A stretch of 50,786 nt of DNA. Source: a virus. The stretch is from positions 1 to 50,786 of the IMG/VR virus record IMGVR_UViG_3300030099_004693; one strand, given 5' to 3'. A program made the position numbers and the translations under genes. Every line of letters starts with the position of its first letter. The stretch's first letter is position 1. The notes beneath the pieces were generated by a model. That model saw only the letters and a list, made by a program, of their open reading frames with translations. It was not told where the DNA came from and made no database searches. This document shows, piece by piece, positions 2,678 through 40,800 of the stretch.

Positions 2678-3619
2678 TTACCACGGATTCTTATTATTAA
2701 AATCCGATATTAAACTATCCATAATCTTATCAGAGTCACTTCTTGCATCATTCCCGCCACCTTGACCTGTCTGAACACCCATCGGAGATGGTATCTGCTG
2801 AGCTCTTTGTGTTTGTTGAAACTCAGGACTTGGTCCAGCATTAGGTTGTGGTTGGCCTTGGCCTTTTTGCAGTCTGTATAACTGAACAAGATTATCTAAA
2901 CTAAGTGAATTAGGGTCTGACATCTGTTGAATAAACTCTTGAGCATCAGCATTATTAAATCCATAATGACCTTGAAGATGAGTGCTGACATCAGCCATTT
3001 GCTGCTGTTGAGCTGCATGCGCTTGCTGTCTTTGTATTTCATCTTGCCTAGCTTTTTCTTGAGCATCAAACTTTTCTTGCATCTGAGTTACGGTATACTC
3101 TTGTTTTAAAGTAGCGTATTCAGACATGTTATCACGCCATTCCTCATAATCATCTAAGTACCTAGCGCTTTCGCTAGTAGGGTCGCTATACGCTTCCTCT
3201 CTACTATAGCCTCTAGGTTTTTGGGGTCTTTCAGGTGGCTCAGGAAACTCTTCAACAAGTTCTGCTTCTTGTTGTGGAACTTGCATTGCGTTCATTTGAG
3301 CTTGTAATTGCTCATTCTGCCGCTGAATTTCTGCTATTTGATTATCTCTTTGAGCAGTTTGGCTTTGCCAGTACTCAAATCGTTTTTCATCATTTTTAGC
3401 AGAATACTCTTGTGCTTGCTCTTGTATTGGAGCAGATTCAGGGGTCTCAGCTACTGCTGGAGCCTGTTCCTGTGGTTCTGTTGTTTCTTGAGTGCCTAAA
3501 AAAGCATCCTCAATAGACATACTATCACTAGAGCCTTCTGTTGGCCATGGTCCTTCAAATGCAGTAGTTGCATCATTTGGATTGGCATTTTCCATCGGGG
3601 TATCTATGTTGTCTGTCAT
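2678..3619 (-). CDS. Putative scaffolding protein, 313 aa
   Basis: This acidic, Gln/Glu-rich protein has a predicted coiled coil at about residues 75-130 (KRFEYWQSQTAQRDNQIAEI and following). A Pro/Gln-rich C-terminal half ends SDFNNKNPW. Such low-complexity, helix-forming proteins between portal and capsid genes are the scaffolds or assembly cores of phage heads. Its ATG overlaps the portal stop in an ATGA tetranucleotide, so translation is probably coupled. A 65-base gap separates it from the capsid gene. Confidence 0.7.
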   Translation of the reverse strand: MTDNIDTPMENANPNDATTAFEGPWPTEGSSDSMSIEDAFLGTQETTEPQEQAPAVAETPESAPIQEQAQEYSAKNDEKRFEYWQSQTAQRDNQIAEIQRQNEQLQAQMNAMQVPQQEAELVEEFPEPPERPQKPRGYSREEAYSDPTSESARYLDDYEEWRDNMSEYATLKQEYTVTQMQEKFDAQEKARQDEIQRQQAHAAQQQQMADVSTHLQGHYGFNNADAQEFIQQMSDPNSLSLDNLVQLYRLQKGQGQPQPNAGPSPEFQQTQRAQQIPSPMGVQTGQGGGNDARSDSDKIMDSLISDFNNKNPW

Positions 3620-5835
3620 TTCTTTTTACTCACTTTCGGCTTGCCCTGTTCGCCGCTTACGGGGGTAGAAGCCTCTGTTTTTATTGAACCAGCGATATCA
3701 CGCTTGATTACGGCCATATTGTCGTCAAGTCGTTTTTCATAAACAGAGCTTGCAGCTTTTGCTTTATTACTAACTTGGTCAAGTTCTGTTTTAAATTTCT
3801 CAACTTCAATTCTTTTTCTAAGGTTAACTGACTCCCTATCTCTAGATTGCAAGTCACCTTTTAATTTTTTAATTTCATCAACTGCCTGTTGCAACTGTGT
3901 TTGGAGTTGTCCGACTTGGTCGGTTCTTTCAACAACACCCTCCATATCAAATACTTCTGTCTTCTTGAGAACCTCAATTCTATCAACCAATCCTTTCTGA
4001 TAAGCATCCATATAAAACTCAAGCTCTGCATATCTGTTAGAAGGTAATGTACTACCTGATAGATAAATTACATCATATTTTCCAACTGTAATATCATTAA
4101 ATGTAGTAATTTCATTTGTTTTGTCGTCAATAAGTTTTTTATTAATAACAAATTCACTTAATGAGTTATTAGGCTGTATTACTCTAAACACTTTTTCTTG
4201 CGTATACAACTGCTGCATTAAAGGTATGGCCACTTGAGCTACTTTAGTTAGACCAGCTTCAATATCAGCTAATTTTGATTTAATTTTTCTTTGTCCAAAT
4301 TCATCAAGACTAATCGTAGCCTTGTAGGTTTGTGGAGCAGCTTGGGCATTACCCATCATCATTTCGTATAATCCTAACTGATGGTCAATATCTTGCTTAG
4401 CTACTTGCTCACCGCTATAAAGTTCGTTTGGAAGCGGAGAGGGTTGGACAGGCATTGGTGCGCCATCTGTTGGGTCATAAGGAATTGCGACACCAGGCTG
4501 AGCCCATTTCTGCTCAAATTCTGACATGTCTACACTACCTTCTGGGACAAGTATCTTAGTATTAGTACTTGTCGTTGCATGCGCTACTATTAACGAACGC
4601 ATTTTATTTATATATTCTTGAAGACCTTTTATCATCCTTACATCAGATTGAGGATAAGGAGTTCTTGTATGTAAACTCATAAATGGTACAATTGGATAAT
4701 CTTCTATTGGAAGCTCTCTACTGTATAAATGTTTATCTCCCATAATAACGCACATATTGACTCGTTTAATTTGAGTTACAACTGTCTGTATTAGTTGTCG
4801 TTCAATAAGTTCTGCAAAACTTACTTCTTCAACGTTAATAGGCTCAGGCGCAATAGGAACTTCTGCATTGCCATCTAAACCCATACTCGTCATACCAGAT
4901 TCCATTTGAGTTTGATACTGCTGTCTTTGTTGTTCTAGTTGAGATAAAATTACCTTTGCTTGTGCGGGGTCATCAATTATTTCACCATTAATTATATATG
5001 CTTGTCGTTGAACGTAGCTAGCATATTCTTCTTCATTTAATAATAATTCTTTTTTACTCCATACTTCATAAACCCTATACCTATCAACCATTACTTTATA
5101 ATAACGTTCATATCCTCTAAGATATTCAGTATTATCTGTTCTATCTACATCTTCAGGAAAATGAGTAGCCATATCGTTAGCTCTACCTGTTTCTGGCCTA
5201 TCATGGTCATAATCACCAGCGTTATTAGCAGCATTCTTAATAGCTTTTTCGTACATAGGATATAAGTTAGCAGCTTGTTCTCTAGTAAATAATCTAGATA
5301 TAATAATATTTTCAGCATCATTAAAGAATCTATCTCTACTATTTGGGTCTACATATACATCAAGTGGGTCTACATCGTGAATACAAACTTCTCCTTTACC
5401 CATATCCATCATTGGGTCTTGATATACGTGTATATATCCTAACCCCATTACATAGTAATCATCTATCATTTGCCGTACTGCGGTTCGCCCATCAGATATA
5501 TCATACATATACGCAAGCATAGCACTCATTACTTGTGCTACTTTATTATCAGAATCTTCTCTAGGCGCTACTCTAAATGATGGTCTATTTGCAGACATCA
5601 TTGATTTTGCTGCTTCAACAGCAGGATGCACTCTATTAACAACTACAGGCGCTTGTCCTCTGGCTCTTAATATATCCTCTTGTTCTTTTGTCCATTGACG
5701 ACCAAGTCTAAACTCTTTATCTTCTTTGGCATGCTTTGCCCAGTTGTCGCGCTTAGAGCCATACTTCTTAAACAAGTCTAATGTTTCATCGACTAAGGGT
5801 TTGCCTGAAAGTTTCTTTTTAACGGTATATGCCAT
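3616..5835 (-). CDS. Portal protein, P22-like, 739 aa
   Basis: The product forms the dodecameric DNA gate at the head vertex. Its length is in the P22-type range. The N-terminal region (residues 1-230) has the typical pattern of a helix-rich start, a RPSFRVAPRE-type segment, DYYVMGLGYIHVYQDP and a DVDPLDVYVDPNSRD stretch, which I recognise from P22-like portals. The C-terminal part (about 640-720) is a long charged coiled coil, consistent with a barrel domain. It sits directly after TerL and overlaps the scaffold gene by 4 bp. The P22-like portal supports a short-tailed virion. Confidence 0.85.
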   Translation of the reverse strand: MAYTVKKKLSGKPLVDETLDLFKKYGSKRDNWAKHAKEDKEFRLGRQWTKEQEDILRARGQAPVVVNRVHPAVEAAKSMMSANRPSFRVAPREDSDNKVAQVMSAMLAYMYDISDGRTAVRQMIDDYYVMGLGYIHVYQDPMMDMGKGEVCIHDVDPLDVYVDPNSRDRFFNDAENIIISRLFTREQAANLYPMYEKAIKNAANNAGDYDHDRPETGRANDMATHFPEDVDRTDNTEYLRGYERYYKVMVDRYRVYEVWSKKELLLNEEEYASYVQRQAYIINGEIIDDPAQAKVILSQLEQQRQQYQTQMESGMTSMGLDGNAEVPIAPEPINVEEVSFAELIERQLIQTVVTQIKRVNMCVIMGDKHLYSRELPIEDYPIVPFMSLHTRTPYPQSDVRMIKGLQEYINKMRSLIVAHATTSTNTKILVPEGSVDMSEFEQKWAQPGVAIPYDPTDGAPMPVQPSPLPNELYSGEQVAKQDIDHQLGLYEMMMGNAQAAPQTYKATISLDEFGQRKIKSKLADIEAGLTKVAQVAIPLMQQLYTQEKVFRVIQPNNSLSEFVINKKLIDDKTNEITTFNDITVGKYDVIYLSGSTLPSNRYAELEFYMDAYQKGLVDRIEVLKKTEVFDMEGVVERTDQVGQLQTQLQQAVDEIKKLKGDLQSRDRESVNLRKRIEVEKFKTELDQVSNKAKAASSVYEKRLDDNMAVIKRDIAGSIKTEASTPVSGEQGKPKVSKKK

Positions 5836-12437: not shown

Positions 12438-12490
12438 AACAGATAAACAAGATAACGCTAACGTAAGGAGTCATGTTATGGCAAACACAA
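12438..12490 (+). repeat. Leader repeat, copy 1
   Basis: AACAGATAA, AAGATAACG and a TAAGGAG ribosome binding site precede ATGGCAAAC. The same order with small differences recurs at 12751-12800 before the next gene. It may be a duplicated leader or a regulatory site. Confidence 0.6.
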
Positions 12491-12747
12491 ATGTAATAAC
12501 AATAGAAAGTAATATACCAATACCAGAATCAAGATGGTTAGGGAATTCAGATAAATATGGGTTTGTAAATAATTTAAATGTAAGTGATAGTTTTTACATA
12601 AATGGAAATACTCCAGATTATAAACCACAAAATGTTAAGGCTCATATTTACAAATTAAATGCTAGTACTGATAAAAAATATACAATTAGAACTATTGAAG
12701 GAACATCAGCAAATCCTGTCGCAATAAGAGTTTGGAGAACAGCTTAA
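12478..12747 (+). CDS. Small conserved phage protein (DUF7303-like), 89 aa
   Basis: The N-terminal PIPESRWLGNSDKYGFVNNLNVSD, then SFYINGN, followed by a basic centre and the end AIRVWRTA, matches a pattern I recall from small phage proteins with a KYPFxxMxVGDSF...RVWR signature (DUF7303). Those are small beta-rich domains of unknown role. A strong TAAGGAG precedes the start. The next gene shares the same leader and the first codons. It lies one gene before the ubiquitin-like cassette but does not show a GG tail itself. Confidence 0.65.
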   Translation: MANTNVITIESNIPIPESRWLGNSDKYGFVNNLNVSDSFYINGNTPDYKPQNVKAHIYKLNASTDKKYTIRTIEGTSANPVAIRVWRTA

Positions 12748-12750
12748 TTT

Positions 12751-12800
12751 AACAGATAATAAGATAACGATAAAATAAAGGAGCCTATATTATGGCAAAC
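12751..12800 (+). repeat. Leader repeat, copy 2
   Basis: Second copy of the AACAGATAA...AAGATAACG...AAAGGAG...ATGGCAAAC leader, directly before the ubiquitin-like gene. It starts about 313 bp after copy 1. Confidence 0.6.
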
Positions 12801-13061
12801 GCAACAAGTGCACCTAGCGGTGAAAGAACAGTAAGTGTAAGTGAAAATGGTAGCTGGTCTACTAAAACAATCGTAGCAAATACTATTGGCGAACTAAGAA
12901 TAGCGTTAGATATACCTAACGAAGCTACAGTTAACGTTCAAGACCAATTGTATACAGATAATTCATCTGCAATGCCAGTTAACGAGCTAAATGATGATGG
13001 TACAACACGACCATTATGTATTGGCTGGGTAGCTAACAATAAAACAGGAGGCGCAAAGTAA
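12792..13061 (+). CDS. Ubiquitin-like (beta-grasp, MoaD/ThiS-like) modifier, 89 aa
   Basis: The product is proposed to be the small modifier of the cassette. The core TIGELRIALDIPNEATVNVQ (31-50), followed by DQLYTDNSSAMPVNELNDDG (51-70) and LCIGWVANNKTGG (75-87), fits the strand-helix-strand-turn-strand pattern of small beta-grasp proteins such as MoaD and ThiS. The protein ends Gly86-Gly87-Ala88-Lys89. A two-residue tail after Gly-Gly is what a JAB peptidase would have to trim before E1 activation, and such a peptidase is encoded two genes on. A strong AAAGGAG precedes the start. The fold is inferred; the GG tail and neighbours are seen. Confidence 0.65.
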   Translation: MANATSAPSGERTVSVSENGSWSTKTIVANTIGELRIALDIPNEATVNVQDQLYTDNSSAMPVNELNDDGTTRPLCIGWVANNKTGGAK

Positions 13062-13086
13062 TGTATCCTGATAAGTAAATAATAAT

Positions 13087-13178
13087 TAAGGGGGACAATA
13101 AGCCAAGTAGTTCTAGTGGATATAGGTGGTGTTCACCGAACACAGAAACTAGACATAGACATCGGTGAGTCCCCCTTA
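13087..13178 (+). ncRNA. Structured gap element 3, pseudoknot candidate
   Basis: TAAGGGGGAC (13087-13096) pairs perfectly with GTCCCCCTTA (13169-13178). Inside, TCTAGT (13112-13117) pairs with ACTAGA (13148-13153), and GTGTTC-ACC-GAACAC (13129-13143) forms a hairpin. The apex TCACCGA (13133-13139) is also fully complementary to TCGGTGA (13162-13168), which directly abuts the closing stem, so a pseudoknot or a switch between two folds is possible. It lies between the Ubl gene and the E2-like gene, 18 nt before the ATG. Confidence 0.6.
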
Positions 13179-13195
13179 TAAAATAAAGGAGAATT

Positions 13196-14818
13196 ATGAA
13201 TTTGTTATTAGATTTTAATTCAAGTCCAACAATTAATAAAAATATCGTAGAATGTAGTAAATCTCCTGTAGAATTTACAGAAACAGGAGCACGCATTAAG
13301 TTTATTAGACCACCACGATATGAGCCATCACACAATTCATTGTGGATAGATATTCTTAATATTGATACATTGTGGGATAATGTAGATGCAGAGCAGTTTG
13401 CAAATAACACAGGAATGCAAGACATAATAGCATTTAAAGAAGAGCTGGAAATAGTAAACACATATTTGTATGATGCTTTTGGAATAACAGATAAGATTGA
13501 TGTTACTAAATCATATGGTTGGAAGAAAGGTTGTTACGATATTGTTAAAGATGCAATTGCAAAAGCTCACAGATTTAACATGAGACCATCAGGTATGCCT
13601 AGTATATTCAACAGAATACAAGATAATAGGTGGATGTATGAACAGCTACAAAGACAAATGCTAGGTCTTGATGCTTATCGTAATAAAGCTAAATCAGCAG
13701 AAATAACACTTGATAGTAGTATCGAAAATATTATTGAAAGCCAACGAGCAGCTTATGATAATATCATAGAAAGTACAAATCAAGCTAATAATATGTCTGA
13801 TTATTACAAAGTATATAATTACATTGAACCATCAACTGATAGTGTTGATATTCAATTATATACAATTGTACATTGCAAATCAAAAGATATGACTATTATT
13901 AACAACAGAAACGAAGAGATATGTAAAATGAAAGTGCCTGAATGTTATCTTAAGTTTCATAGACCATTGTACAGAGCATTAAATGGTGGGAACAGGTATC
14001 CTTTACATTATACTGCAGCTGTTATGCATGGTAAACATCCATACATTAACGCAACACCGTATCGAAGGTTAAATCATTCGAGTATAGATAGATATGCATG
14101 GAGCACATTATGTCTATCTAGTTATACTGATGATATAGAGCGTGCGTTGAAAAAAAATGATTACATGTCTTTTGTTATGGGTATTATGAATTGGAATAAT
14201 ATTTATAATAAAGATGCAACTAATCCATATGCTGAAATCACACAAGTTATGACTTATGGTACATTTCCAGAAGTTAAAAACGAAGATGAACTGCATAGAA
14301 TAAGAACGGCTCTTAATATTAGTCTACACGAGTTCTTTCGCGCTAAATACTTTAAACACACAATGACAGAACTTGATAGTGTTCAAAGAGATTGGAACGA
14401 AAGAATAACTAGAAATTACTCTCCATATGCAAGATATATTGTTGAAGAATATGATAGTAAGAATTGTCCAACACGAAATGTTTGCACTGGATATCAAAAT
14501 CTTAAATCATATCTTGATTCAGATACGCAGTATATGGTAGAAGAAATGGTAGGTAATTTTCTTATTAATGACAATAGTAATGAGTTTGATGTAGGCTATG
14601 AGTTTCAAGAACTAGAATCAATACTAATGGCTATAAATCATTCTGTAAGAGCTGAAAACTTGTGGGACCAGTTACAGCAACTAAAGTACTCAGATGAAAC
14701 TGATTACTGGGGTGAAGCCCCGATAAAAACCGATAATAACCCTGATATTGCAGCGATGCAAGCTAAAATATCACAATGGGAAGAACAATTAGCAGCCTCA
14801 GGAGGTATAAATGAGTAG
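13196..14818 (+). CDS. Large protein with E2-like (UBC/RWD) core, 540 aa
   Basis: The product is proposed to be the conjugating partner of the cassette. Residues 268-330 read YPLHYTAAVMHGKHPYIN, then an insert, then TLCLSS with Cys306, then ERALKKNDYMSFVMGI, a Trp-Asn and NPYAEI. Ubiquitin E2 enzymes show the same order: YP, HPxIN about 13-15 residues later, a catalytic Cys followed by Leu, an AL helix and an NP. The His281-Cys306 gap is about 15 residues longer than usual. Flanking regions (1-240, 360-540) are helical and unrecognised. AAAGGAG precedes the start; the end overlaps the JAB gene by 8 bp. Motif reading by eye makes this a hypothesis. Confidence 0.5.
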   Translation: MNLLLDFNSSPTINKNIVECSKSPVEFTETGARIKFIRPPRYEPSHNSLWIDILNIDTLWDNVDAEQFANNTGMQDIIAFKEELEIVNTYLYDAFGITDKIDVTKSYGWKKGCYDIVKDAIAKAHRFNMRPSGMPSIFNRIQDNRWMYEQLQRQMLGLDAYRNKAKSAEITLDSSIENIIESQRAAYDNIIESTNQANNMSDYYKVYNYIEPSTDSVDIQLYTIVHCKSKDMTIINNRNEEICKMKVPECYLKFHRPLYRALNGGNRYPLHYTAAVMHGKHPYINATPYRRLNHSSIDRYAWSTLCLSSYTDDIERALKKNDYMSFVMGIMNWNNIYNKDATNPYAEITQVMTYGTFPEVKNEDELHRIRTALNISLHEFFRAKYFKHTMTELDSVQRDWNERITRNYSPYARYIVEEYDSKNCPTRNVCTGYQNLKSYLDSDTQYMVEEMVGNFLINDNSNEFDVGYEFQELESILMAINHSVRAENLWDQLQQLKYSDETDYWGEAPIKTDNNPDIAAMQAKISQWEEQLAASGGINE

Positions 14819-15779
14819 ACCTAACTTTATTATTAAAGAAAAAGCGTGGAACACTATGCAACAGTATGCAGGCATTGCATATGACAAGGATAAAAACGAG
14901 ATATCTGGATTGATACCATATAAACTAACAAAGCATCCTGTATCAAACGAGACTGTATATGAGTTATTTGACCCAGTTATCTTAAAACAAGAAAACTCAG
15001 GAACAACAACAGAGCTTGATGGTGAAGCGTTACGAGATTACCAAATTAAAGCTGGCATGAAATATGGAACAGACATCAGGTTTTGTTGGTGGCATTCACA
15101 TCATACAATGGGCGCATTCTGGTCAGGAACAGATGACAAAGAAATAAAAGCATGGAAGAATGATTCATGGTCACTTGCACTTGTTGTTAATCTGTTTGGA
15201 GAATACAAACTAAATGTATCTGTTTGGAAACCAATAGAGTTTTCTGAAGATGTGCCATTAGAAATTATAAGAGATATTCCTAAAGCAACAAAAACACAGC
15301 TTAAAGAATACGATGAATTATGTTCTAATAAAACAGAAGTCGTACATACTGGCTGGCAATCAAAAGGATATACTCCTCACAATCAAGTAACTATGTGGAA
15401 TAATCAAACTAAAGAAGATGCGCTTGACCCTAATGCGCACAAAAAGCTAAAATGGGTTCATGGAGAATCTATGGAACCTTATGCAGAGCTTATCGAAGCA
15501 TTAGATGAAGCAGTATCTGATATAATAGATGATTTCTGTCAAGGTACTATGGATTATAAAGAATATTCTAGCAAAATCAAAATGTTAAACAAAGACTTAA
15601 AGCAAAGAAATGCAAAAGTTAAAATTAATATACTGCCAAAAGGCAAAGTATTGGAAAAAGCAATGACTATGCAAGCTTGGGAACATTTAAAATATGATAA
15701 CGAAGCTGTAGAAAAATCATATGATGATGCTAGATTAACTAACTATCAAACAAACTATGGAGGTTATGGATGGGTATAA
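14811..15779 (+). CDS. JAB/MPN (JAMM) metallopeptidase, 322 aa
   Basis: The protein carries a complete JAMM zinc site: Glu30 (in NEISGL), then His95-x-His97-x7-Ser105-x2-Asp108 in WWHSHHTMGAFWSGTD. Enzymes of this family cut isopeptide or peptide bonds after ubiquitin-like Gly-Gly tails, so processing of the upstream modifier or removal of it from targets is the natural guess. The domain fills about residues 1-160. The remaining 160 residues are charged, helical and unrecognised. The gene overlaps the E2-like gene by 8 bp and the E1-like gene by 10 bp. Confidence 0.85.
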   Translation: MSRPNFIIKEKAWNTMQQYAGIAYDKDKNEISGLIPYKLTKHPVSNETVYELFDPVILKQENSGTTTELDGEALRDYQIKAGMKYGTDIRFCWWHSHHTMGAFWSGTDDKEIKAWKNDSWSLALVVNLFGEYKLNVSVWKPIEFSEDVPLEIIRDIPKATKTQLKEYDELCSNKTEVVHTGWQSKGYTPHNQVTMWNNQTKEDALDPNAHKKLKWVHGESMEPYAELIEALDEAVSDIIDDFCQGTMDYKEYSSKIKMLNKDLKQRNAKVKINILPKGKVLEKAMTMQAWEHLKYDNEAVEKSYDDARLTNYQTNYGGYGWV

Positions 15780-16441
15780 ACATGAGAAGCGAAGGCTTAG
15801 TAAACACTTTGCATGAATATACTTTTCATATATTAGGTTGCGGAGCTATTGGTAGTTCTGCAGCTACTCAGTTACTAAGATGTGGTGCTAAAAACTTTGT
15901 ATTATACGATATGGATAAAGTAGCAACAGAAAACATCGGCGTATCTCAGTATATGGATGAGCATATTGGCATGTTAAAAACTGAAGCATTAGAAGAACAT
16001 CTGATGAGTATTAATTGTAGGAACGTAGAAATAATACAATCACCAGAATACTTTAACATGTTTCGATATCAAAATAATAATGACATTGTAATATTAGGTT
16101 TTGATAGTATGAAATCTAGAAAACATGCAGTTCAAGAAATATGTTCAAATAAACAAACTAAACCATTCTTGTTGATAGATGGTAGGATGGGCGGTGAACA
16201 TTACCAACAATATTTGTTTAAAGACTTGACACTAAATAAATATCTAAAAACATGGTATTCTGACGAAGATGGTGATGCAGAGCCATGTAATGTCAAAGCA
16301 ACAAGTTATTGCTCAAATATGGCAGGTAGTATGATTGTAAACGCTATTAGAAAGGTAGTTACAGATAGTCCTTACGAAACAATGTTGACTTTTAACTTCC
16401 CTACAATGACAATACAAAAAAATACTTGTTTCCCAGCCTGA
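15770..16441 (+). CDS. E1/ThiF-like adenylating enzyme, 223 aa
   Basis: The product is expected to adenylate the C-terminus of the modifier. Nucleotide loop GCGAIG lies at 23-28; DMDKVATENI at 47-56 gives the acidic and Asn residues; Lys70 follows the GML motif; then FDSMKSRKHAV (111-121) and LLIDGRMGG (134-142) match the ThiF/E1 pattern. Cys173 and Cys181 (in PCNVKATSYC) are candidates for a catalytic thiol or zinc pair. The Arg usually found in NxxRQ is absent (NIGVSQ). At 223 aa it is a minimal E1 with no extra domain. GGAGG sits 6 nt before the start. Confidence 0.8.
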   Translation: MGINMRSEGLVNTLHEYTFHILGCGAIGSSAATQLLRCGAKNFVLYDMDKVATENIGVSQYMDEHIGMLKTEALEEHLMSINCRNVEIIQSPEYFNMFRYQNNNDIVILGFDSMKSRKHAVQEICSNKQTKPFLLIDGRMGGEHYQQYLFKDLTLNKYLKTWYSDEDGDAEPCNVKATSYCSNMAGSMIVNAIRKVVTDSPYETMLTFNFPTMTIQKNTCFPA

Positions 16442-16515: not shown

Positions 16516-17190
16516 ATGAAACTAACAAAAGAAAAAAGGAAAGCTATTTCTGTAAATCCTTCTACTTTATTATTGTATGGAGCACCTAAAGTTGGTAAAA
16601 CTACCATGCTATCTAATTTAGATGATTGTCTAATAATAGATACAGAAAAAGGTAGTCGTATGATTGAAGGTTACATACAAGAAGTAAATAGTAGAGATGA
16701 GTTAATTGAAACATTAATAGCTATTAAAGAAAGTAAAGATGTAAAGTATAAATATATAGCTATTGATACAATTGATAAAGTCGCAGAATGGGCTGAACGC
16801 AGAGTATGCGAAGAAGAAGGTGTGAACTCTATTGCTGATTTAGCATTTGGTAAAGGTTATGGACTTGTACGTGAAAAAGTAGCTAAAACTATTTCACATT
16901 TCAAAGAAGTAGCAGAACATCTTATCATCATTGGACATAGAAAAGTAGCGTATGCAGTAACAGAAGGTAACCCTATAGTAATACCAGAATCTCTTGATTT
17001 AACAGGTAAACTAAAAAATGTTATCATGGCTGGTTGTGATGCTATTGGATATGTATATCGTGATGACAAAGAAAACCTAATGGTGTCTTTTAAAGCTAAT
17101 GATAGCATAGAAGCAGGTAGTAGATGTCCTCATTTAAAGGGTAAAGAAGTTAAATTTGAATGGAAAAATATATATAAGGAGGCTAAATAA
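16516..17190 (+). CDS. Sak4-like RecA-fold ATPase, 224 aa
   Basis: Phage Sak4-type proteins promote single-strand annealing together with an SSB. Walker A GAPKVGKT lies at 22-29, followed by LIIDTEKGS and, later, YIAIDTIDKVAEWA (Walker B region) and HLIIIGHRK. Length and motif order match this nucleotide-binding family. The next gene starts at once after the stop and looks like an ssDNA-binding protein, which is the usual partner. Confidence 0.75.
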   Translation: MKLTKEKRKAISVNPSTLLLYGAPKVGKTTMLSNLDDCLIIDTEKGSRMIEGYIQEVNSRDELIETLIAIKESKDVKYKYIAIDTIDKVAEWAERRVCEEEGVNSIADLAFGKGYGLVREKVAKTISHFKEVAEHLIIIGHRKVAYAVTEGNPIVIPESLDLTGKLKNVIMAGCDAIGYVYRDDKENLMVSFKANDSIEAGSRCPHLKGKEVKFEWKNIYKEAK

Positions 17191-17802
17191 ATGGCTATAT
17201 TCAAACCAGAAACAACAAGTGCAGGAACAGGGACTCCTAAGTCTTCATACTTAGGAGCAATAGAAGTGGGTACAGTAGGATTTAAAGATAGAAGTGGCGA
17301 CTTTCCAGGACAAGACTGGGCTGAGATATTTTTAGAAATAGAATTATCTGTCAAAGGTAGCGAATACACAAATAAAATGTCTTTATTAGGTAGATTAGAT
17401 AAAGATAGTGAAGGTAAAATAGTTGGAGGTAGTGTACTAAAAAGAATGTACAATATCTTTGATATGATTGGATTTAAAGGTGGTCTTACTATTGATAAAA
17501 AATGGGAAGACGAAAATGGCAATCAAATAACTAATATTGCAGAACATCTTAACAGCAACTTTAAAATGGATGGACAGGACTTTATTGCGTATGCATACAA
17601 AAAGAAGCCTAAAAAGCCAGGAGATAAAGTATATACAGAAATGTGGCCTAAACTATGGTTAAACACAGAAGGTGGCAGAATGCAGTGCGACAAAGATGTT
17701 AAATGGCTTAAAGAAAATGGTTATCTAAAGGAAGCTAGTCAAGATGATTTTGCTCCAAAAGGACAAACTAATTTAGCAGACAACGCATTAGCTAATCTAT
17801 GA
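17191..17802 (+). CDS. Putative ssDNA-binding protein, 203 aa
   Basis: The N-terminal 130 residues look like a beta-rich OB-type domain (DWAEIFLEIELSVKGSEYTN). The tail is acidic and polar. It sits between the Sak4-like ATPase and the primase-helicase, the usual place of phage SSBs. A GGAGGCTAAATA leader precedes the ATG. It overlaps the primase-helicase by 4 bp. The assignment rests on position and general look. Confidence 0.55.
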   Translation: MAIFKPETTSAGTGTPKSSYLGAIEVGTVGFKDRSGDFPGQDWAEIFLEIELSVKGSEYTNKMSLLGRLDKDSEGKIVGGSVLKRMYNIFDMIGFKGGLTIDKKWEDENGNQITNIAEHLNSNFKMDGQDFIAYAYKKKPKKPGDKVYTEMWPKLWLNTEGGRMQCDKDVKWLKENGYLKEASQDDFAPKGQTNLADNALANL

Positions 17803-19565
17803 AATACGTAGAGGTAGCAGTCGGAGGTCCTCATAACCGAGGAAATCTAGTTTTGCGTAGTGAGCTTGGCCATTATCTTCCTAAAGATGGAAGCCCACTA
17901 TATCGCTCTGTTTATCTCTACGGTGATGATGCAAAAGAATATGCTGATTCACATAGGACGTTAAAAGGCTATCACGGTAAGCGTGGTATTGATAATATAC
18001 TTATTGATATAGACAAAAAAGATAATTCAGATGAATACACACTAAAACAATTGCGTACTACTCTTCAACATCTAAATACCCTAGAAGTCCTAGATGAGAG
18101 TATACAATGCTATTTTAGTGGTACTGGTTATCATATCGTCATAACAAACAAAGTATTCAATTTCCAAGCTAGTGATAGCTTGCCCTATCAAGTAAAACAA
18201 ACCATGTCGAATCTGTTTGAAGATATTGACTCAAGTATCTACATGAGAAGTGGAATATATCGTGTGACACACACAAAAAACCAGAAAACAGGTTTATATA
18301 AAATACCTATTACACTACATGAAGCATACAACAAAACATATCAACAGATACACGAGATGGCTAAAGACCCACGCTTTGAGTACCCATATGAATTATTAGA
18401 TGGAGATTGTGAACTAGAAGGCTATATATGCCTAGATGTACCAAAAATACGTCAACAAGGCAAAGTTAGTGAACCTACGAAGGTAGTACCTTGTGTACAA
18501 ACAATGCTTAGGAATGGCCCAATACAAGGCTCTAGGCACAATACACTACTTAGGATAGCTAGTTATCTAAAAAGAAATGGAGTACCCAGCGACTATGCAA
18601 AAGTAATGATATTGCATTGGAATAACAATATGATGGATGAAGAAGCAGTCATACAAAAAATAGAATCTGTTTACAATGGAAACTATAGATACAGTTGTCA
18701 TGACTCAATTATGAAAGAACATTGTCAAACTAAATGTGTTTATTTCAAAAACAAAAACTATCATATCGATGTAAAAGATTCTGATACATTACAAAAAGAA
18801 TATGAAGAACGCTTAGAAACCAACTTCCAAGGTAGAACTGTACCTTTATCAGATATGTTTGGTTTAAAAGGATATGATACACAAATATATCCAGGCGAAC
18901 TTGTAACGATATTCGGTCCAACAGGGTCTAACAAAACTACACTCGCACAGAATCTTGCATTGGGTGTAGATTTTAAAAACGATAGAATAAACAAACAATG
19001 GCAAATACCAACATTGTTTTTATCACTAGAGTTATCAGCATGGTACATGCACAGACGTCATTTGCAAATAGTATCTGGTTTATCAAAAGAAGAAGTGAAT
19101 GCTAATTACAAAGAAGTATACAAGCGTCATTCTGATGAGCTACAACATCTACATATACAAACAGTTACACCAACACTAACATCAATACAAGACAAAATAA
19201 AAGAACTAAGTCCATATCTTGTAGTAGTTGATTATATAGATTTGGTAGATACACCAAAAGATGTTAAAGGAGAGTATGAACAAATTAAATACATATCTCA
19301 TAACTTATCTAATATGGCTGTTAATCTAGATGTTATTATTATACAAGTATCACAAGTTAGTAGAGAATACAGTAGAAATGAAGTTTTAGACCTGTATGCA
19401 GGTAAAGGTTCAGGTGCTATTGAGAATGCATCACGTAAAGTGATTGGTCTTAATGGACAGGCTGATTCTAATATAAAAGAAATTCATATGTACAAAAATA
19501 CTGACGGTGAATTATTTGACGTTGATGTAGAATGGAATGAAAGCTTTAGGTTAAGGAGAATATAA
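17799..19565 (+). CDS. Fused primase (AEP) and DnaB-like helicase, 588 aa
   Basis: The N-terminal half has archaeo-eukaryotic primase signatures: LIDIDKK (Asp70, Asp72) and CYFSGTGYHIVI (Ser107, His112). A middle region (about 230-320) with GSRHNTLLRIASYLKRNG and a Cys-rich stretch resembles the PriCT/zinc region seen in such fusions. The C-terminal half has Walker A GPTGSNKT at 373-380, Walker B LVVVDYIDLV, and later VSQVSREYSR of a RecA-like replicative helicase. It would prime and unwind DNA at the fork. No DNA polymerase gene is seen next to it. Confidence 0.85.
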   Translation: MKYVEVAVGGPHNRGNLVLRSELGHYLPKDGSPLYRSVYLYGDDAKEYADSHRTLKGYHGKRGIDNILIDIDKKDNSDEYTLKQLRTTLQHLNTLEVLDESIQCYFSGTGYHIVITNKVFNFQASDSLPYQVKQTMSNLFEDIDSSIYMRSGIYRVTHTKNQKTGLYKIPITLHEAYNKTYQQIHEMAKDPRFEYPYELLDGDCELEGYICLDVPKIRQQGKVSEPTKVVPCVQTMLRNGPIQGSRHNTLLRIASYLKRNGVPSDYAKVMILHWNNNMMDEEAVIQKIESVYNGNYRYSCHDSIMKEHCQTKCVYFKNKNYHIDVKDSDTLQKEYEERLETNFQGRTVPLSDMFGLKGYDTQIYPGELVTIFGPTGSNKTTLAQNLALGVDFKNDRINKQWQIPTLFLSLELSAWYMHRRHLQIVSGLSKEEVNANYKEVYKRHSDELQHLHIQTVTPTLTSIQDKIKELSPYLVVVDYIDLVDTPKDVKGEYEQIKYISHNLSNMAVNLDVIIIQVSQVSREYSRNEVLDLYAGKGSGAIENASRKVIGLNGQADSNIKEIHMYKNTDGELFDVDVEWNESFRLRRI

Positions 19566-22619: not shown

Positions 22620-22869
22620 CTCAGGGCAGAAAGAATACGCTCATGATGAAGATAATGTATTTGCTAACTTCGAAAGAGTAGCAGAATCCTGCAATATATC
22701 CAGAGAACAAGCTCTTTGGGTATATGCATCAAAACACTTTGATGGAATATCTGCTTATGTTAAAGGATATAAAAGTCAAAGAGAAGATGTACGTGGTAGA
22801 TTAACAGACCTTACAGTATACTTATGGTTGTTGTGGGGTATGATAGAAGAATCAGAAAGTAAGTCCTGA
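22552..22869 (+). CDS. Nmad1/MazG-like nucleotide-related protein, 105 aa
   Basis: The start is ATG 22552 behind AGGAGGT. GQKEYAHDEDNVFANFERVA, then LWVYASKHFDGISAYVKG, REDVRGRLTDLTVYLWLLW is a pattern I recall from phage proteins of the Nmad1/DUF1599-like group, which share an all-alpha MazG-like fold. These are thought to act on nucleotides or modified bases. It is the last rightward gene; its 3' end overlaps the end of the convergent giant gene by 18 bp. Confidence 0.6.
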   Translation: MKHKEMKNLMEKKILPQITKTRDSGQKEYAHDEDNVFANFERVAESCNISREQALWVYASKHFDGISAYVKGYKSQREDVRGRLTDLTVYLWLLWGMIEESESKS

Positions 22870-25800
22870 CCCAGGTGTTGGGACTTTTCTTTCTTCACCT
22901 TCTCTTAATTCTTTGGACGCTCTACTTAATCCTATTAATGGTATGCCTGTCCATTTATCTACAAGTGACATTGGGTTTTCTATTAAATTGTTTTGAGCAA
23001 CAAAATCTCTAGATATTCTTCCAAATGGATACATAGTGTGTATGTAATAGTTAGCTACTCGTTCCCAATCATCTTCTAATACAGCTCTCATAGATGCCAT
23101 TGGCAGTCTTGCTATTGGTGGAGTAATTAGTTGTAATGGTGCAATTGGCTGTGGCCATTGCCCAAAAAATGCTCTTTTCTTATCTTTTTCATCACCAAAC
23201 AACCATTCACTAGTATCCTGCATCCAGTTCCATGGCGATGGCATTGCAGTATCAAATAATGAATATGCAAAAGCATTACCTAATGAAAATACAAATAGGT
23301 CTAATTGCATTATTCTTGCCACACGTTCTGCTTCTTTACCTTTAAAACCATATAATCTAGCTTGTCTTAATGCTTCTCTTCTAAAACGTATAGCATTCCA
23401 GCCCCAAAGCTGGAAACGTGTCATTACTTTACCTAATGCTGTTCTAGCAAACATAGGTCTAAATGGAGCAGAATATAAAAACTGAGTAGATTTAACTCCT
23501 TTCTTAGCTAAATCTATTAATATAGGGTGGTCAAACTCTCTAATAGCACCATTGAATTTTTTATACCAAAATAAATAATGTGCCATAAATGCATCTCTTC
23601 TTAATGCTCTTTCTGGTACAGACATAAACTTAGCTGCTAATTCTGTAACAGGTCTTGTGATACCCTTTTCTTTACCTAAATCTAAAACAGATTCACTAGA
23701 TAAATTAGGGTCACGTTTAAGTTTACGTGCAACAAGTTCAATAAACTCTTTATTACGAGATGATTGATATTCTGTTGCTAAACCATATTCCTCAAGTAAT
23801 TGCTCAGGCAATACGCCTTGTTTAATTACAAACGCTTCTCTAGCTTCTTTAGATGCAAACTTATCACTAAGTGCAGCCATATATTTATTGTTTCTAGCAT
23901 CCATCCAAGTCTTCATACCAACAGATTGTACAGTATGCATAGTACCACCAAAAATATTAGCAACAACAGACTTAGGATGTGCTAATAACGATGCTAACTC
24001 AAACTTAGCTTCTAGGTTACTCCAGTTACGTACATCATTTAAATCTAAACCTCTAAGTTCTTCAGGTAATTCTTTCTTAATTAATCCTAATTTGTCTCCT
24101 ATTTTATTAAGTCTATCTTTAACTCTATTATCAGCCCACCATCCATAAGGTGTACCTTTTATTTTCATGTTAGGATTTTCATAAACATACTCAGGGACAA
24201 CATCAGGATTGCCTATAGCGCCTTGCACATAAAGTTTTAAGAATGTAGACCACGATTCTTTAATGTTTTCTGGTACTTTTCTATCAAACATTGACTGTTC
24301 AAACTTAGATATAGTATCTCTTGCAAGTATTTGAGCCCATTGTTTGTAATATGTATTGTTTAAACTTTTACCATAGCCTGTGGGAACCTGTATGTCTAAT
24401 GAATATCCAGGTATATGACCTTCTCTACTAAGCTGAGAACCAGTTTTCTTTATATCTTGCAACCAACTTATACGTTCTTCTTTTTTTTGTTTACGTTTGC
24501 CTATATTTTCTAAACTTTTATTAAATCCTTCCCAAGTATTAATAGCTTCAAACATATAATCACCAGTTAATGCGTGATGTCTGTATGTTAATTTAGTTAT
24601 TAACTTATCTTGTTCTTTAGCATCTAAACTGCTTTTGCGTATATATTTTACATATTCTTTAAGTGCGTTAAGTGCGGTTTTTTTACTAAAATGATTATGT
24701 GGAAAATACATTTCTTCTGATATTCTACCAGTTCTAGATGGAAATGTTTCATACATTTTTTTCAATTCTTTTTTCTTTAGTTTTTTAGTATTAGTAGCTA
24801 TTTCATATTTCATTGACCTAGCTATAGTATTTATACCATCAATACCAAATTCTGTCGGTATTTTTTTGTTTTTAGCTACAGCTCTATTAAAATCGTTTAC
24901 AAGTTTTTCAAAGTTAATAATTGGATTTTGTTTAGTTTTAGGGTCGTAAAATCCTTTAACGTAGCCACTATTTTTAGGACCAGATGTAAATCCAGGAATA
25001 CCAAACTCTATAGCTTTTTGTAATGCATATAATGGTTGACCATCTGCAGTTGTTCCTATTACTTTTAAATTACCAGAAGAATCTTTAGGAACATTACCTT
25101 GTGCAATCTCTAATTCTTTTTTATAATATGCTGTTTCTTTATTGTTAATAATATCAACAATTTCAGAACCCTTTAACTTTTGCAGTTTTTTATCTATTTC
25201 AACAGTATAAACTTTATCTTTTAAATCAGTTTCGTATTTATGTTTTTTAGTAATTTCATTAAAAGCATCTGTATATGTCTTAGCGTGAAACATAGCAAGA
25301 GGTTTATCTTTTTTACTTACATCTGTTAAAATCTTTTCTGCCATAGGAAGTTCTCGTTTAACCATAGCTACTTCCCATAATTGTTTGCCTTCAGGTATAG
25401 CATCTAAAAACGTATATTCTTTTACTCGTTCTAAAGATAACTGTTCATTGGCTGCATCTGCTGCATCTAACACGCTTTTAATTCTATATTGAGTAATGTC
25501 TATGTACTGAGTAGGTAATATAGACTTACCAGTCTTCATACCTTCTGCTGTCATAAATATACCTTTCTTTTGCATCAGAACAATTTCATCTCGCATTAAT
25601 TCTTTATTAATAGTTTCAGGAAACTGTAAATATGTACGCTGTGATACTTTACTAATATCTTCACCTTTTAATCGTTGCCAAAAAGTACCAGTCTTAGTAT
25701 CTCTAAGCCAATTGCGAAGTACCATCCAGTCCTGTTTATTAAATATATTTATATCTTTGCCTACAACTTCACGTGCAATAAATCCAATGTTTTGTACTAC

Positions 25801-28800
25801 TTTATTGTTTTCTGTTTTTAAGTCCATTACAATGTCATCAATATAACCCTTAGTCTCAGCATCTAGTTTAGTTTTACCTTTAGCTTCTTTAACGCCTTCC
25901 CATCCAGTAGTAAATACTTCTGTTAGTTTAGCATCAGATTCCTCAGGCCACCCTTTTTCAATGCTTTCTTTTTTAGTAGGTTCTTCTAATAGTATAGTTC
26001 CTTCTCTTCGTATTTGTTCTGGTGCACGATGAGTAGATACTTCGTTGTATGTATTGTTTATTTCACCTAAAAACTTTCCAATAGAATTAGTTTCCATAGC
26101 TTCGCTGTTGTATCCCAACATAGATGATGACGTTCTTGCTGTATTTGTAAGCTCTGTATCATAGTCTTTTTGTTCCTTATTAGTTAAAGGTCTTTCTAGT
26201 TTAATTGCGTTTAGTTCTGCTAACTTTTCAAGATTACCACGATTCAATGAACCTAACATTAATGTATCAAACAATCTTTTTTCTATGTCAGTTCTATTAC
26301 GTTTCCATTTTCTTATCTCTGCATCAATAGCATTTTGGTCTTTAATCGATGAACCTTTAGACTTTCTTTGTCTACCAATATTTAGTTCAGTATCTAAACT
26401 ATTTCTATCATCTCTCATTAGATACGATTCTGCTTTTAATTTTTCTACTGTAGTATGCGCATCTTCTATCATTGCATTTACTTCAGCTTTTGTAATACCA
26501 GGAACTCTTTTCTTTACAACATCTATAATTTTTACAAGCTCTTGTACAGTCACCATTGTTTGTATATCTCTACCAGAAAAATCACCAGCTTGTTCTTTTA
26601 ATCGTTCTAATACAGCAATGCGTTCTTGTTCTGTGTAAAGTTTATTTTTTGCCTTTTTAAATGTAGCAAACTTAGTTCCTTTTATAACATCGTAAAACGT
26701 AGCTTTGTTTTTAGCAGCTGCAACTAATGCATCAGGGTTTAATAAATTGTATTTATACACTTTATTAATAATTGTAGGAGTAGGTGTTTTTAATGTTCTT
26801 CTTCCTAACATACCTTTTAAAGAACTATACTCAGCTACACTTTTGTTGTAGTTATTATATAAATCTGTTATTCTATCAAATTTTACTCTATTTAATGCGT
26901 GGTCAGAATAGTCTATATTATGTAACAGTCTAGCTATTTTAGGCGTCATAGTAGTAATATTCTTTGGGTCTTCAGCCATAAGTTCTGCTGTAAGATTCTT
27001 TCTGTCTTCCATAGTATATTGACGTTGATTTGTATAATCTTTGCCGTAGTATGCATTATTAGCTTTACTTAACATACCAATAACACCATTTTTATTAAAC
27101 TCTGAAACATTCAACTTAGCTAATGGCACTTTTGATTTAACAATAAAGTGAGCCTCTAATGCTTGTTTATACCAATTCTCATAGCCTTTAGGCTTACCAT
27201 AATCCATTGCATCTGATGAAAAACCAACCATAGCACGCATTAGTTTATTTGCGTAATCTATTTCTTGAGGTTTAGTTTTAGGGATAAGAGTTACTTTTAT
27301 ATCTTTACCAAAATGTTTAACAGTAAACTCGTCTTTACCTTTATTAAGTATCATTTGATATGCAGATGCCATAATGTTTTTAGGATTAACAGCAGCTCCA
27401 CCAAGAAGTCCTCTACCTTCTACAGCACCTTCTGATGCTTGATGTCGCATATTAGGCGCAAACATACCAGCCTGACTTTTAAATAACGCGTCTTCTCTTG
27501 GACTATATTCTTGTATAAGCTTTTTCTCAAATTCTTTAGCTTTGTTATCAGCTATTTTAAACCTACCATCTTTCTGTTTAACATAGAACTCTTGTTCTTG
27601 AGCTTCCATTACATCTTTATATTCTTTCTTTAAACCACCCTTACCACCAAAGTACATATACGCAGAATCAATATCAAGGTCAGCACCACCTAACGCTCTC
27701 ATCTTTAACCCATGCATTAGTATGCCATAGTCATTTCTTCCAGTAAACCCAGCAAACTGCAATATTTGTGTACCAGAGTTAGAATCTGCTGGAACTCTTA
27801 TAACTGCAGTCCTAAAAACCTCTTCTAGCCGTTTTTTAGCCGATTCTGGAGTACTTTTACTTAAGTACGTGCTATAGAGCTCTTCGAGTGTTTTCTTTCC
27901 ATATAGCTCTGTTTCAATAACTTTCTTTTTATGTTTGTCTCCAAGGAAAAATATTTTAGAATTTGTATTTAATTCTTTTAACCTAGGATTAACACCATCT
28001 AAATCTTTCTGTAATCCTTCATCATATGGTCTAATAATAGCTGCAGCAGAGTTTTTAACCTTTGGTTTAGTAACAGAGTTTACTATCCAACTAGACATCA
28101 TTTTATCTCTGTATTTGTTTATATCTGGATGCGTAAATATATTAGCTTCATTCTCTGGTTTACCACGTTTAATAGCGTCTTTACGTGCAGCTGCTATCAT
28201 TTTTTGTGCAACAGAATGGTAATACTCAACTTCCCTATTGTTTGCATCGTATTCTGCTTCTGTCATTACACCTTCGGCATACTCTTCTCTTATAGCAGAC
28301 TTTCTATTTAACAATAGATAGTTATAAAATGCCTTAGAAAACAATTGATTACCAGGTTGTTTCATAGCATCTGTTATACGTTCTAACCCAATAGCATCAA
28401 AATCTAGCTTATCTAGTTCTTTAGCTAATTGTTTATCTGATGCTGTAGGTAGTTTTTCTAAGTACGCATCTAATGCTTCATTAGCTTTTGCATCACCTTT
28501 AATACGTGGCTCCATAAAATCTTTAAATATACCATCAACTGCTTCTTTGACAGTAAAGCCATCTTTAGATGCTTTTTGAAATGCCATAGCTTCTACTAAA
28601 TTAGTAAGCATTTGTTTTTTAATACTCTGCGGTGCAATAAACTTTTTACTTTGCTTTATGCCTAAATCTTGTTTAATATGCGTAGGGTCTAAATCATATA
28701 CTTCATAAAACTCTCTTGTACCTTTTTGTTTAACAGCAGATGCCATAATATTCATATGTATACCAGCATCTTTCATTTCTGCTGATAACTTAGGTCCTGC

Positions 28801-37825: not shown

Positions 37826-40800
37826 TATTTAATGCTTTTGGGTTTATATACTACTCCTATAGAGTCAATATATCCTTTTTGTCCGCGTAATCTAATACTT
37901 AAATTCTTTCCTTTAGTTCCTGCTGGAAACTTTAATACTGGAGAAACAACATGTATTAAAGCATTTGCACTATGACTTGCTGCCGTAGTGCCCATAATGC
38001 CTCTAGTTATATCTGCATAATTATATCTTGCAGTTTCGATTTTAAGAGCAGTACTAACAAACATTAATTCATCATCTATTCTAATTATATGACCTTCTCT
38101 AATAAATGATTGATATCTTTTAGTGTTATCAGTAGTATCTGCTCCAGAAGAAGTGTATGGTTTAATATCAGTTATCATAGCAAGAGATGTTTGCTCGGCA
38201 TTTATACTAGTTTCAAGTTTTGCTCCGCCCAAATTCAATGTTTCATAAAATCGTTCTTTGACTAATAATTTTACTAAGTCTCCATCTACATACGCTTGAA
38301 CAGATACAATATCATTTTTATTAGTTGAGTCATATTCTATTGGAGTGTCTTCAAGACTATATATGCTAGGAGTACCTAAAAATTTAATGCTTCTAAATAC
38401 TTTATCTTGAGTATCAGCCCCAAAGTTAATATCTTTACTAAACCAATCCCAACTTCTTCTATTGTAATCTACCCATTCATCAGATTCTAATTTTAGGTAA
38501 TTATATATATTAGTGTTGTCTGCTATTAATATATCAGAATCTTTAGAAAAAGTTACAGCATGTGGCGTTGGAGCATCCCATAAATCCCATCTTCTTTTTG
38601 CTATATTAAATGCAAATACTTTTCCTTCTCCAGCTGAATTAGATAAATGTATTAAAAAGCTATTGTGTTTACCAGAATATGACACATGTGGTTTGTGGCC
38701 ATTAGTTAATGTAGATTGAATTAGTTCTCTATATCCTTGCTCTAATTTTATAAATCCATCTGTATTAGTAGTATTATAAACAACAGAATCATTAGAAGAG
38801 TATAATATAGGGTCACCTATAGTAACTGGTTTGTTTCCATCGTGCAAGTATATATTATTTGAATCTATAAAGCAAAGACCATATTCTGTTTTAACAAAAG
38901 AATCTTTACTAGATACACTAAATCCTTGATAGCTATCTTCCACTAACATACTATAAGGGTCTATTTTATATAAATTATTTTCACCCCATACATAAAGTCT
39001 ACTGTTAAAACTGGTCATGCAAATTGGAGTTTCTGGCATAATAACAAAATCTTCTGTCCAATTAAATGCATAAAAATTATCAGGTTGAGACCTAAATATA
39101 TAATGCTTGACGTTACCTAATTCAGGATGTGAAGCCCTAGATACAAATAAATATCCTTGATGAGCACACGATAATCCGTAATTTAATGAAGTGTCTTCAA
39201 TACTTGCATCTATACCATTATTAGCAAAATATGTTGACTGTAAAACTCCTGTGTCTTGAATTGTAAAATTATAAGATTTTGAATCACTATTGTATATCCA
39301 GCTACTTTCAAAACTAATTACGCCAACTTTACTATACTCTACATCTATTCCGCCTTCATATTTTCTATATACTACAATTCCTGTAATTCTATCTGACATT
39401 GCATTGACAATATCTTCTGGAATAGCAATATTTATATTAATATATTCATACCTTTTAGTTCCATCTGTTGTAGATACAGTTAAAGAATGGCTTACAGATT
39501 CTTTTGTTAAGGTAGATTCATATTGGTTGTCATACTCATACGCTAATTTATAATAGTATGTTCCTTCTTCTAAATTCCCCTCAGTACCTTCTCCAGAATT
39601 TGTAAAATTAATATAAGTATTTAATGTAGTAAGTATTTCACTATCATCAGATGCGCTAAATAATTGCCCACTATCTCCTTCAGCATCAGATGCACTAAAA
39701 AAAGTGCTATTTAAATCTTCAGTATAAGTAGAACCTTCTTGTCTAAGATAAGAGTGAGTATTAGTTCCAAAATATACATTAGAACTATTTTGTGCATTCG
39801 TATTAATAAACCAATGATAATCTGCATTAGCAAGAGAATCTTTACTGTGATTTGCTAATGGATTAAAAGGAGCAAGTAAAAGTTGAGCTCCAGTAACTAT
39901 ACTATCATATTTATCTAATCCAGATTGTTTCATTTGCAGATTGTCAATTATAGTGCCATTAGGATTATATACTGTATCTAAATCAGTTATGTTTATAATT
40001 TCTGCTCCATGGGTTCCTCTATTATTTACTGATTGAGAAGTATCAGTAGCCCCAAATCCAAGACTTCCATAAGCTAAGCGGCTAACAAAAAGACCATTAT
40101 GCCACATTTCTCTATGGTAAGTACTATCTGGGCTTTTATCAGAAATTAAATCCCAAATATAATCAAAATTAGTTCTTAAAACTAAAGCTCCAGACCCTTG
40201 AGTGCCTTGTCTGCTAGTCGCGCATAAATATCCTGCGCAAAAATCATAACTTGAATCGTTAGTAGTGTCTACATTGCTATTTAAAACAAAAGGAAATATA
40301 CTAGAAATTTCACCCATATCTGCTATTGCTATTTTATGCATTGTACATACTGCTTGCATATTACTAGGCATCGTATTGTAAGGAGTTTTAAAATTAATAT
40401 CATTATCATTTACAACTGGGAATTTAAATCTACTGCATTGATACCACCATCCATCTAACCAATCTTGATTAGTCGACGACGGCTTTACTCCGCTTTCAAC
40501 ATTATCTGACAATGCTGTGCTACTAAAATTATTCCATCTATTTTTATTTAAACCTGCAACGCCTGTTGTATTAAAAATTTGAAATCCCCAGGCACTTTCT
40601 GCATCAGCCTCGCTAAATCCATCCATAAATGTCCCAGAATAATTTGTCATGTTTTGCCATGACCTATTAATATAAACATAATAGCCAGACCCTGGATTAA
40701 ATAGATAAGGCGGAGTATATCCATCCCATCCTTTATCTGTAGCTTCAGTAGTAGCTGTGGTGCTGGTATCATAAGCGCCTCCATTTACACTACTGTGAGA

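Follow-up and report, generated by a model that had tools for sequence, protein, structure and literature searches.

The virus record IMGVR_UViG_3300030099_004693, a stretch of 50,786 bases that is called the window here, stems from a marine phage and carries phage terminase, portal and major head genes. Between positions 12792 and 16441 it features four consecutive plus-strand genes whose products quite probably form a full cascade of reversible ubiquitin-like conjugation that the phage would use in early infection: a ubiquitin-like modifier (Ubl), an E2-like protein, a JAMM/JAB peptidase and a minimal ThiF-type E1 (Table 1). The genes occur in identical order and on the same strand in 68 of the 120 loci examined by iterated hidden Markov model (HMM) searches; the set is not a random assembly. 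A preliminary description of the window had proposed a full conjugation pathway. For the Ubl, the JAMM peptidase and the E1, this proposal is supported by protein families, invariant residues, a model of the Ubl and synteny, and for the E2 it is probable and unproven. The positions and strand of the four open reading frames (ORFs) and their overlaps of 8 and 10 nucleotides were reproduced exactly, and the motifs read in them are all present: the GGAK ending of the modifier (NNKTGGAK), the YP...HPxIN...CL core of the 540-residue protein (Y268-P269, H281-P-Y-I-N285 and C306-L), the complete JAMM site of the 322-residue protein (E30 and H95-S-H97-x7-S105-x2-D108) and the ThiF/E1 loop of the 223-residue protein with its DxD...N...K pattern (GCGAIG at 23–28, D47-x-D49, N55 and K70).

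Table 1. Positions of the cassette genes, their predicted functional residues and the neighbouring replication genes in the window
Feature	Position	Strand	Remarks
Ubl modifier	12792..13061	+	89 aa; C-terminus NNKTGGAK; single predicted beta-grasp domain
Invariant Gly86-Gly87 codons	13047..13052	+	GG in 44/44 aligned; window copy with 2-residue AK extension
E2-like protein	13196..14818	+	540 aa
HPYI at residues 281-284, corresponding to HPN in UBC	14036..14047	+	aligned to HPNI of UBE2D2
Predicted catalytic Cys306	14111..14113	+	69/69 homologues; aligned to catalytic Cys of UBE2D2
JAMM/JAB peptidase	14811..15779	+	322 aa; 8-nt overlap with E2-like gene
JAMM Glu30	14898..14900	+	invariant in 83/83
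JAMM metal site H95-S-H97-x7-S105-x2-D108	15093..15134	+	H95, H97, S105, D108 in 84/84
ThiF-type minimal E1	15770..16441	+	223 aa; 10-nt overlap with JAMM gene
E1 nucleotide loop GCGAIG, residues 23-28	15836..15853	+	G23, G25, I27, G28 in 82/82
Predicted thioester/thiolation Cys173	16286..16288	+	motif EPCNxKATSYCSNM; 81/81, also in crAss-like E1s
Sak4-like recombinase ATPase	16516..17190	+	phrog_124, 1.4e-33; directly 3' of E1
Primase/DnaB-like helicase	17799..19565	+	DnaB_C, 4.9e-17 (Pfam); phrog_19, 1.4e-32

The four predicted proteins

The 223-residue protein is firmly assigned as an E1 on its sequence. It features one ThiF domain—matched by Pfam ThiF at 2.1e-20, over the cut-off—and its closest solved relative is human UBA5 (E = 1.9e-6). 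The GxGxxG loop, D47, D49, N55, K70, D112 and C173 are invariant in 81 to 82 of 82 homologues. The location of C173, the putative Ubl-carrying residue, resembles that of the cysteine in ThiF and UBA5, and near N55 the phage protein (NIGVSQY) has another residue in place of the Arg that is canonical in E1s. The assignment of the 322-residue protein as a JAMM peptidase is equally firm at the level of its predicted metal site: the match to Pfam Prok-JAB is under the curated cut-off (E = 8.7e-4), and H95, H97, S105 and D108 are kept as far as the phages crAss001 and FpV4.

A Ubl fold of the 89-residue protein is well supported by modeling. The structure prediction and fold comparison proposed in the preliminary description yielded a beta-grasp model by AlphaFold2 (predicted local distance difference test, pLDDT, 75.7) with the strand and helix order E-E-H-E-E-E, and the matches of this model in the PDB are mostly Ub-fold proteins—among them Elongin B, ThiS, TtuB and ubiquitin—as judged by Foldseek (prob up to 0.97, E 0.037–0.5). 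Pfam ThiS is matched by 8 of 44 homologues, at best with 1.6e-4. The Ubl ORFs span 65–111 residues and hold one Ubl domain. Of 71 copies, a count that includes redundant loci, 33 have their C-terminus exactly at the Gly-Gly; the other copies continue for 1 to about 15 residues (C, AK, IK, SK, KKQ and longer tails). This pattern fits a modifier that would need a free Gly-Gly and would be trimmed where tailed. A JAMM-type protease uncaps GG-C and GG-MV sulfur carriers (PMC6006322), and BilA, the Ubl of the bacterial Bil system, is matured by a deubiquitinase (DUB) (PMC11354881).

The 540-residue protein is probably an E2. Its E2-like core, at about residues 176–345, is flanked by a helical N-terminal and a helical C-terminal part, and the AlphaFold2 model (pLDDT 84.2, predicted template modeling score, pTM, 0.75) begins this order of elements with a helix, followed by several strands, the segment around C306 and a pair of helices, which is an E2-like order. 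Besides the predicted catalytic C306, W333 and C424 are invariant in all 69 homologues. The HPYI motif keeps its Pro in 66/69 and Tyr or Phe in 69/69, with His in 51/69 (Phe in 16, Tyr in 2). Many members carry the arrangement HPYI-x(n)-G-x-V-C-L-D, with variants G-x-[VI]-C-L-[DS], comparable to HPNI...GSICLD of UBE2D2. As judged by hhalign, the core aligns to a UBC profile with P = 0.0017 and a score of 26.0, both the Cys and the HP motif being in register; 100 column shuffles reached at most 19.2, other cassette proteins and segments at most 15.7, and the reversed profile was also lower. With four bacterial E2 domains added to UBC, the comparison gave P = 5e-4 and a score of 29.4 versus at most 14.2 in shuffles; a bacterial E2 compared with UBC as positive control scored 34.9. 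The UBC profile consists of four sequences, UBE2D2, UBC9, UBE2N and UBE2L3, of which the first two were checked against PDB chains.

Neither the window Ubl nor the window E2-like protein had a convincing match in Pfam, PHROGs, NCBIfam or PADLOC, tblastn matched neither of them in phage records, and PDB sequence searches with the two profiles returned noise only. Most homologues of the E2-like protein carry, between residues 380 and 430, a cluster of four Cys residues (C380 in 50/69, C419 in 50/69, C424 in 69/69, C430 in 59/69) that possibly binds Zn or an Fe–S center. The window copy retains only C424 and C430.

Conservation and inheritance of the gene set

Scans of viral contigs reached 7 loci via the E2-like protein, 35 via the E1 and 343 JAMM relatives, 80 of which were fetched. 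In the loci beyond the 68 complete ones, the cassette mostly begins or stops at the contig edge; in two of the loci (L030 and L084) the iterated HMM searches found no Ubl despite some upstream sequence. Also outside the 68 are the crAss-like loci, where the E2-like protein and the Ubl have diverged so far that these HMMs miss them. Scans of bacterial and archaeal genomes gave a single weak E1, on an archaeal metagenome-assembled genome (MAG) contig, and no relative of the JAMM peptidase; this absence is weak evidence because the search patterns were restrictive. An Altiarchaeales MAG contig (L120:1044-3454) features a JAB-like ORF and a ThiF-like E1 near each other, both distant relatives.

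From its sequence relationships, the cassette looks like a core part of the replication module that is inherited vertically together with the Sak4-like recombinase gene. This reading is based on three observations. Gene distances correlate at 0.65–0.90 among the cassette genes and at 0.70–0.83 between these and Sak4; of 65 complete cassettes, 60 have Sak4 in a fixed position, 52–354 bp 3' of the E1 gene; and the cassette is present in 11 of 11 contigs that were reached independently via the terminase and extend 9.6 kb or more upstream—the stretch stopping before the E1 in one of them—with the Ubl visible at the edge of two shorter terminase-bearing contigs. A candidate for a cassette-free relative, L180, was rejected, its sequence apparently stopping short of the cassette region. 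The preliminary description had placed the cassette in the early arm. This agrees with the plus-strand early (replication) arm of the window, where replication genes adjoin 3' of the E1 in the series Sak4-like recombinase, 203-residue protein, primase/DnaB-like helicase, HNH/endonuclease VII-like gene and exonuclease.

Just 5' of the Ubl gene, the window encodes another protein of 89 residues (12478-12747), which is found likewise in L002 and L007 and is absent from the other close relatives that were read. In L004, the Ubl gene is separated from the E2-like gene by an inserted spore photoproduct lyase-like gene (2765-3622; Pfam SPL, 4.9e-22), and the tail end of a similar gene lies 5' of the E2 in L057. 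The window also features two giant minus-strand ORFs at 22852-31272 (2806 residues) and 37825-43866 (2013 residues).

Homologous cassettes are carried by cultured Bacteroidota phages, namely crAss001 (gp79-gp76), DAC15 (gp48-51), frurule and Flavobacterium phage FpV4 (gp53-50). Between the marine and the crAss-like/FpV4 groups, homology is secure for the E1 and the JAMM peptidase by profile alignment (hhalign, E = 1.9e-40 and 1.1e-15) and marginal for the Ubl (0.0076). The full-length E2-like groups, marine versus crAss-like, gave no alignment by hhalign, and their cores gave only P = 0.07. Where profile alignment failed, the link between the marine and crAss-like E2-like slots comes from a viral fold search with the E2-like model: it retrieved a crAss cr128_1 protein of 435 residues (E = 2.1e-3, prob 0.99), which agrees in length with the gene of the syntenic E2-like slot, and a second viral protein of 420 residues (E = 1.1e-3), the length of FpV4 gp52. 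The crAss-like and FpV4 cassettes have the same gene order as the window and differ from it by a long C-terminal extension of the Ubl, usually with SG, by a larger JAMM peptidase and by a mostly larger E1. The crAss-like cassette lies between a primase and a uracil-DNA glycosylase, with one further gene separating the E1 from the glycosylase. In L121 (4271-6669) and other crAss-like records, the JAMM proteins are labelled 'metalloprotease domain containing' and the E1 proteins 'thiamine biosynthesis protein', labels that are probably misleading; the counterparts in crAss001, DAC15 and FpV4 bear no other annotation than metalloprotease and thiamine biosynthesis protein. In the crAss-like cr106_1 (L043:1680-2883), an HNH-type endonuclease-like ORF splits the Ubl gene right after KIKSG, and the extension forms a separate ORF.

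Proposed mechanism and competing explanations

In the proposed cascade, the JAMM peptidase would trim the Ubl precursor and thereby expose the Gly-Gly where it is tailed, as by -AK in the window. The E1 would adenylate Gly87 and load the Ubl onto Cys173; the E2-like protein would accept it on Cys306 and pass it to an amine of the target; and the JAMM peptidase would remove it again. The sequence directly shows which residues are catalytic, that they are invariant, and the synteny; we infer every chemical step, including E1-to-E2 transfer and isopeptide formation, and any target. The likeliest targets would be the replication–recombination proteins of the phage itself or host proteins met there, a tentative guess from the Sak4/primase/helicase context. 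Among the targets considered in the preliminary description—host proteins, rival phages and the replication proteins of the phage—linkage to replication genes favors the last. A role in replication is the likeliest guess because Sak4 follows the E1 in 60 of 65 cassettes and the crAss-like cassettes neighbor primase and uracil-DNA glycosylase genes. Less likely than not is the full picture, in which marine phages, crAss-like gut phages and Flavobacterium phages share a phage-core Ubl signaling system, built on a new E2 family, for the reversible tagging of proteins of replication and recombination.

Several points weigh against the proposed conjugation cascade. The E2 had been called the weakest link from the outset, and the results are divided: C306 is invariant, the UBC profile aligns above all controls and the model has an E2-like order of elements around Cys306, yet a PDB fold search with the whole model retrieved no E2, and Pfam UBC (UQ_con) and Prok-E2_B gave no match at E <= 1 in 15 viral records. 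Bacterial E2s alone as hhalign target gave no signal with the E2-like core, and the crAss-like counterparts align to UBC no better than shuffles. The catalytic Asn of HPN is Tyr or Phe here, and the His is replaced by Phe or Tyr in 18/69. Moreover, the crAss-like Ubl mostly ends in SG instead of GG, no E3 or substrate was identified, and the whole case is computational.

The same chemistry could serve counter-defense, with the phage Ubl modifying host immunity proteins or the JAMM peptidase stripping conjugates made by Bil or by the cyclic oligonucleotide-based antiphage signaling system (CBASS). The confidence placed in this explanation overlaps with that in the conjugation cascade as a whole because the chemistry is common to both and the target differs. 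Phage proteins are the targets tagged by Bil, and in type II CBASS the cGAS of the system is conjugated (PMC11354881, PMC10097602); the early-arm location of the cassette would suit such a role. Nonetheless, we consider it unlikely: for stripping alone, an own Ubl, E1 and E2 would be superfluous; the cassette is constant and apparently inherited vertically in the replication module, unlike a variable anti-defense island; and its divergent form, found in crAss-like and Flavobacterium phages, stays in a replication context.

An improbable alternative is a sulfur-carrier system, in which a ThiS-, MoaD- or QbsE-like Ubl would be uncapped by the JAMM peptidase and converted by ThiF to a Gly-Gly thiocarboxylate, and the 540-residue protein would accept the sulfur—as an enzyme of, for example, nucleotide, tRNA or DNA thiolation that uses Cys306 and a Cys-rich site. 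The best scores of the E1 are with ThiF-type models, Ubl homologues match Pfam ThiS, and the four-Cys cluster is common in the 540-residue family. Carriers capped by MV or C after the GG and needing a JAMM-type protease are known as well (PMC6006322); the tails in the phages read AK, IK and C. However, no rhodanese was matched in the window at E <= 1, which leaves room for a sulfur donor encoded by the host; no thiolation enzyme or biosynthetic gene was recognized alongside; and the HPYI...G-x-[VI]-C-L-[DS] motif is UBC-like. That the E1 performs MccB-like peptide activation, with the Ubl-like protein as product precursor and no protein tagged, is very improbable: MccB is among the solved relatives of the E1, but the set has a JAMM peptidase and a Ubl-fold protein whose GG is invariant, rather than a short peptide and an exporter, and the early-arm location also speaks against it.

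Known systems and meaning for phage biology

The Bil system consists of four genes ordered Ubl-E2-JAMM DUB-E1, with the DUB maturing the Ubl (PMC11354881). The phage cassette has the gene order of BilABCD, a system named as a relative in the preliminary description, though the identity of the phage E2 is probable only. The proteins differ. BilA has two Ub domains versus one in the phage Ubl; BilD has an inactive and an active adenylation domain plus a Cys domain versus the single ThiF domain of 223 residues; and the CEHH motif of BilB (Cys, +6 Glu, +8 His, +13 His) is absent from the window protein, which has C306, D312, I314 and K319. Membership in Bil was rejected on these tandem Ub domains, the BilD domains and CEHH. 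In addition, Bil is a bacterial antiphage system, whereas the present set is phage-borne and lies in a replication module.

Type II CBASS (Cap2/Cap3) shows a likeness in the E1 domain: that of the phage is similar to the E1 part of the E1-E2 models in PADLOC. Membership was rejected, as E1 and E2 are separate, the set has its own Ubl and no cyclase was found among the scanned neighbors. The UBA5-UFC1-UFM1 system shares the minimal single-domain E1, with UBA5 as top PDB match; the catalytic Cys of UBA5 (C250) lies inside the adenylation domain, and UFC1 is also without HPN. This system is distant in sequence, and the present set is viral and has a JAMM peptidase instead of a cysteine protease.

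Membership in the PRTRC type, raised earlier as a possible relative, was rejected: the NCBIfam models are far under their cut-offs, with PRTRC ThiF at 26 bits versus 144.75 and PRTRC_A at 14.8 versus 101.8. Operon class 6d, which we take to be PRTRC, likewise has Ubl, E2-like, JAB and E1 as separate genes; the phage E2-like protein differs by its length of about 500 residues with extra helical domains. Class 6d comprises Ub-like, JAB, E1-like, E2-like and alpha-helical proteins, the E2 of which may lack the classical His, and the lambda/T1 tail gene TAPI (Ubl) adjoins TAPK (JAB) (Iyer 2006). The latter pair belongs to a tail cluster with no E1 or E2, whereas the present set lies in the replication arm with an E1 and an E2-like protein. 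The class 6d and lambda-tail accounts, in the passages covered, describe no phage replication-module set like this one (Iyer 2006). A complete phage-encoded cassette was not found described in the open literature, preprints and subscription papers lying outside the search.

The known bacterial systems of ubiquitin-like conjugation whose activity has been demonstrated serve mainly in defense against phages. A complete set that is constant in phage replication modules would reverse this picture and imply that phages themselves tag proteins; the sequence evidence suggests that some phages do so during infection. The idea is directly testable because relatives of the cassette occur in the culturable phages crAss001, DAC15 and FpV4. 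Labels of crAss-like proteins such as 'thiamine biosynthesis protein' would need correcting, and the E2-like family would contribute a deep branch to the E2 story. If true, the cassette would represent a viral counterpart of the control of DNA replication by ubiquitin and SUMO.

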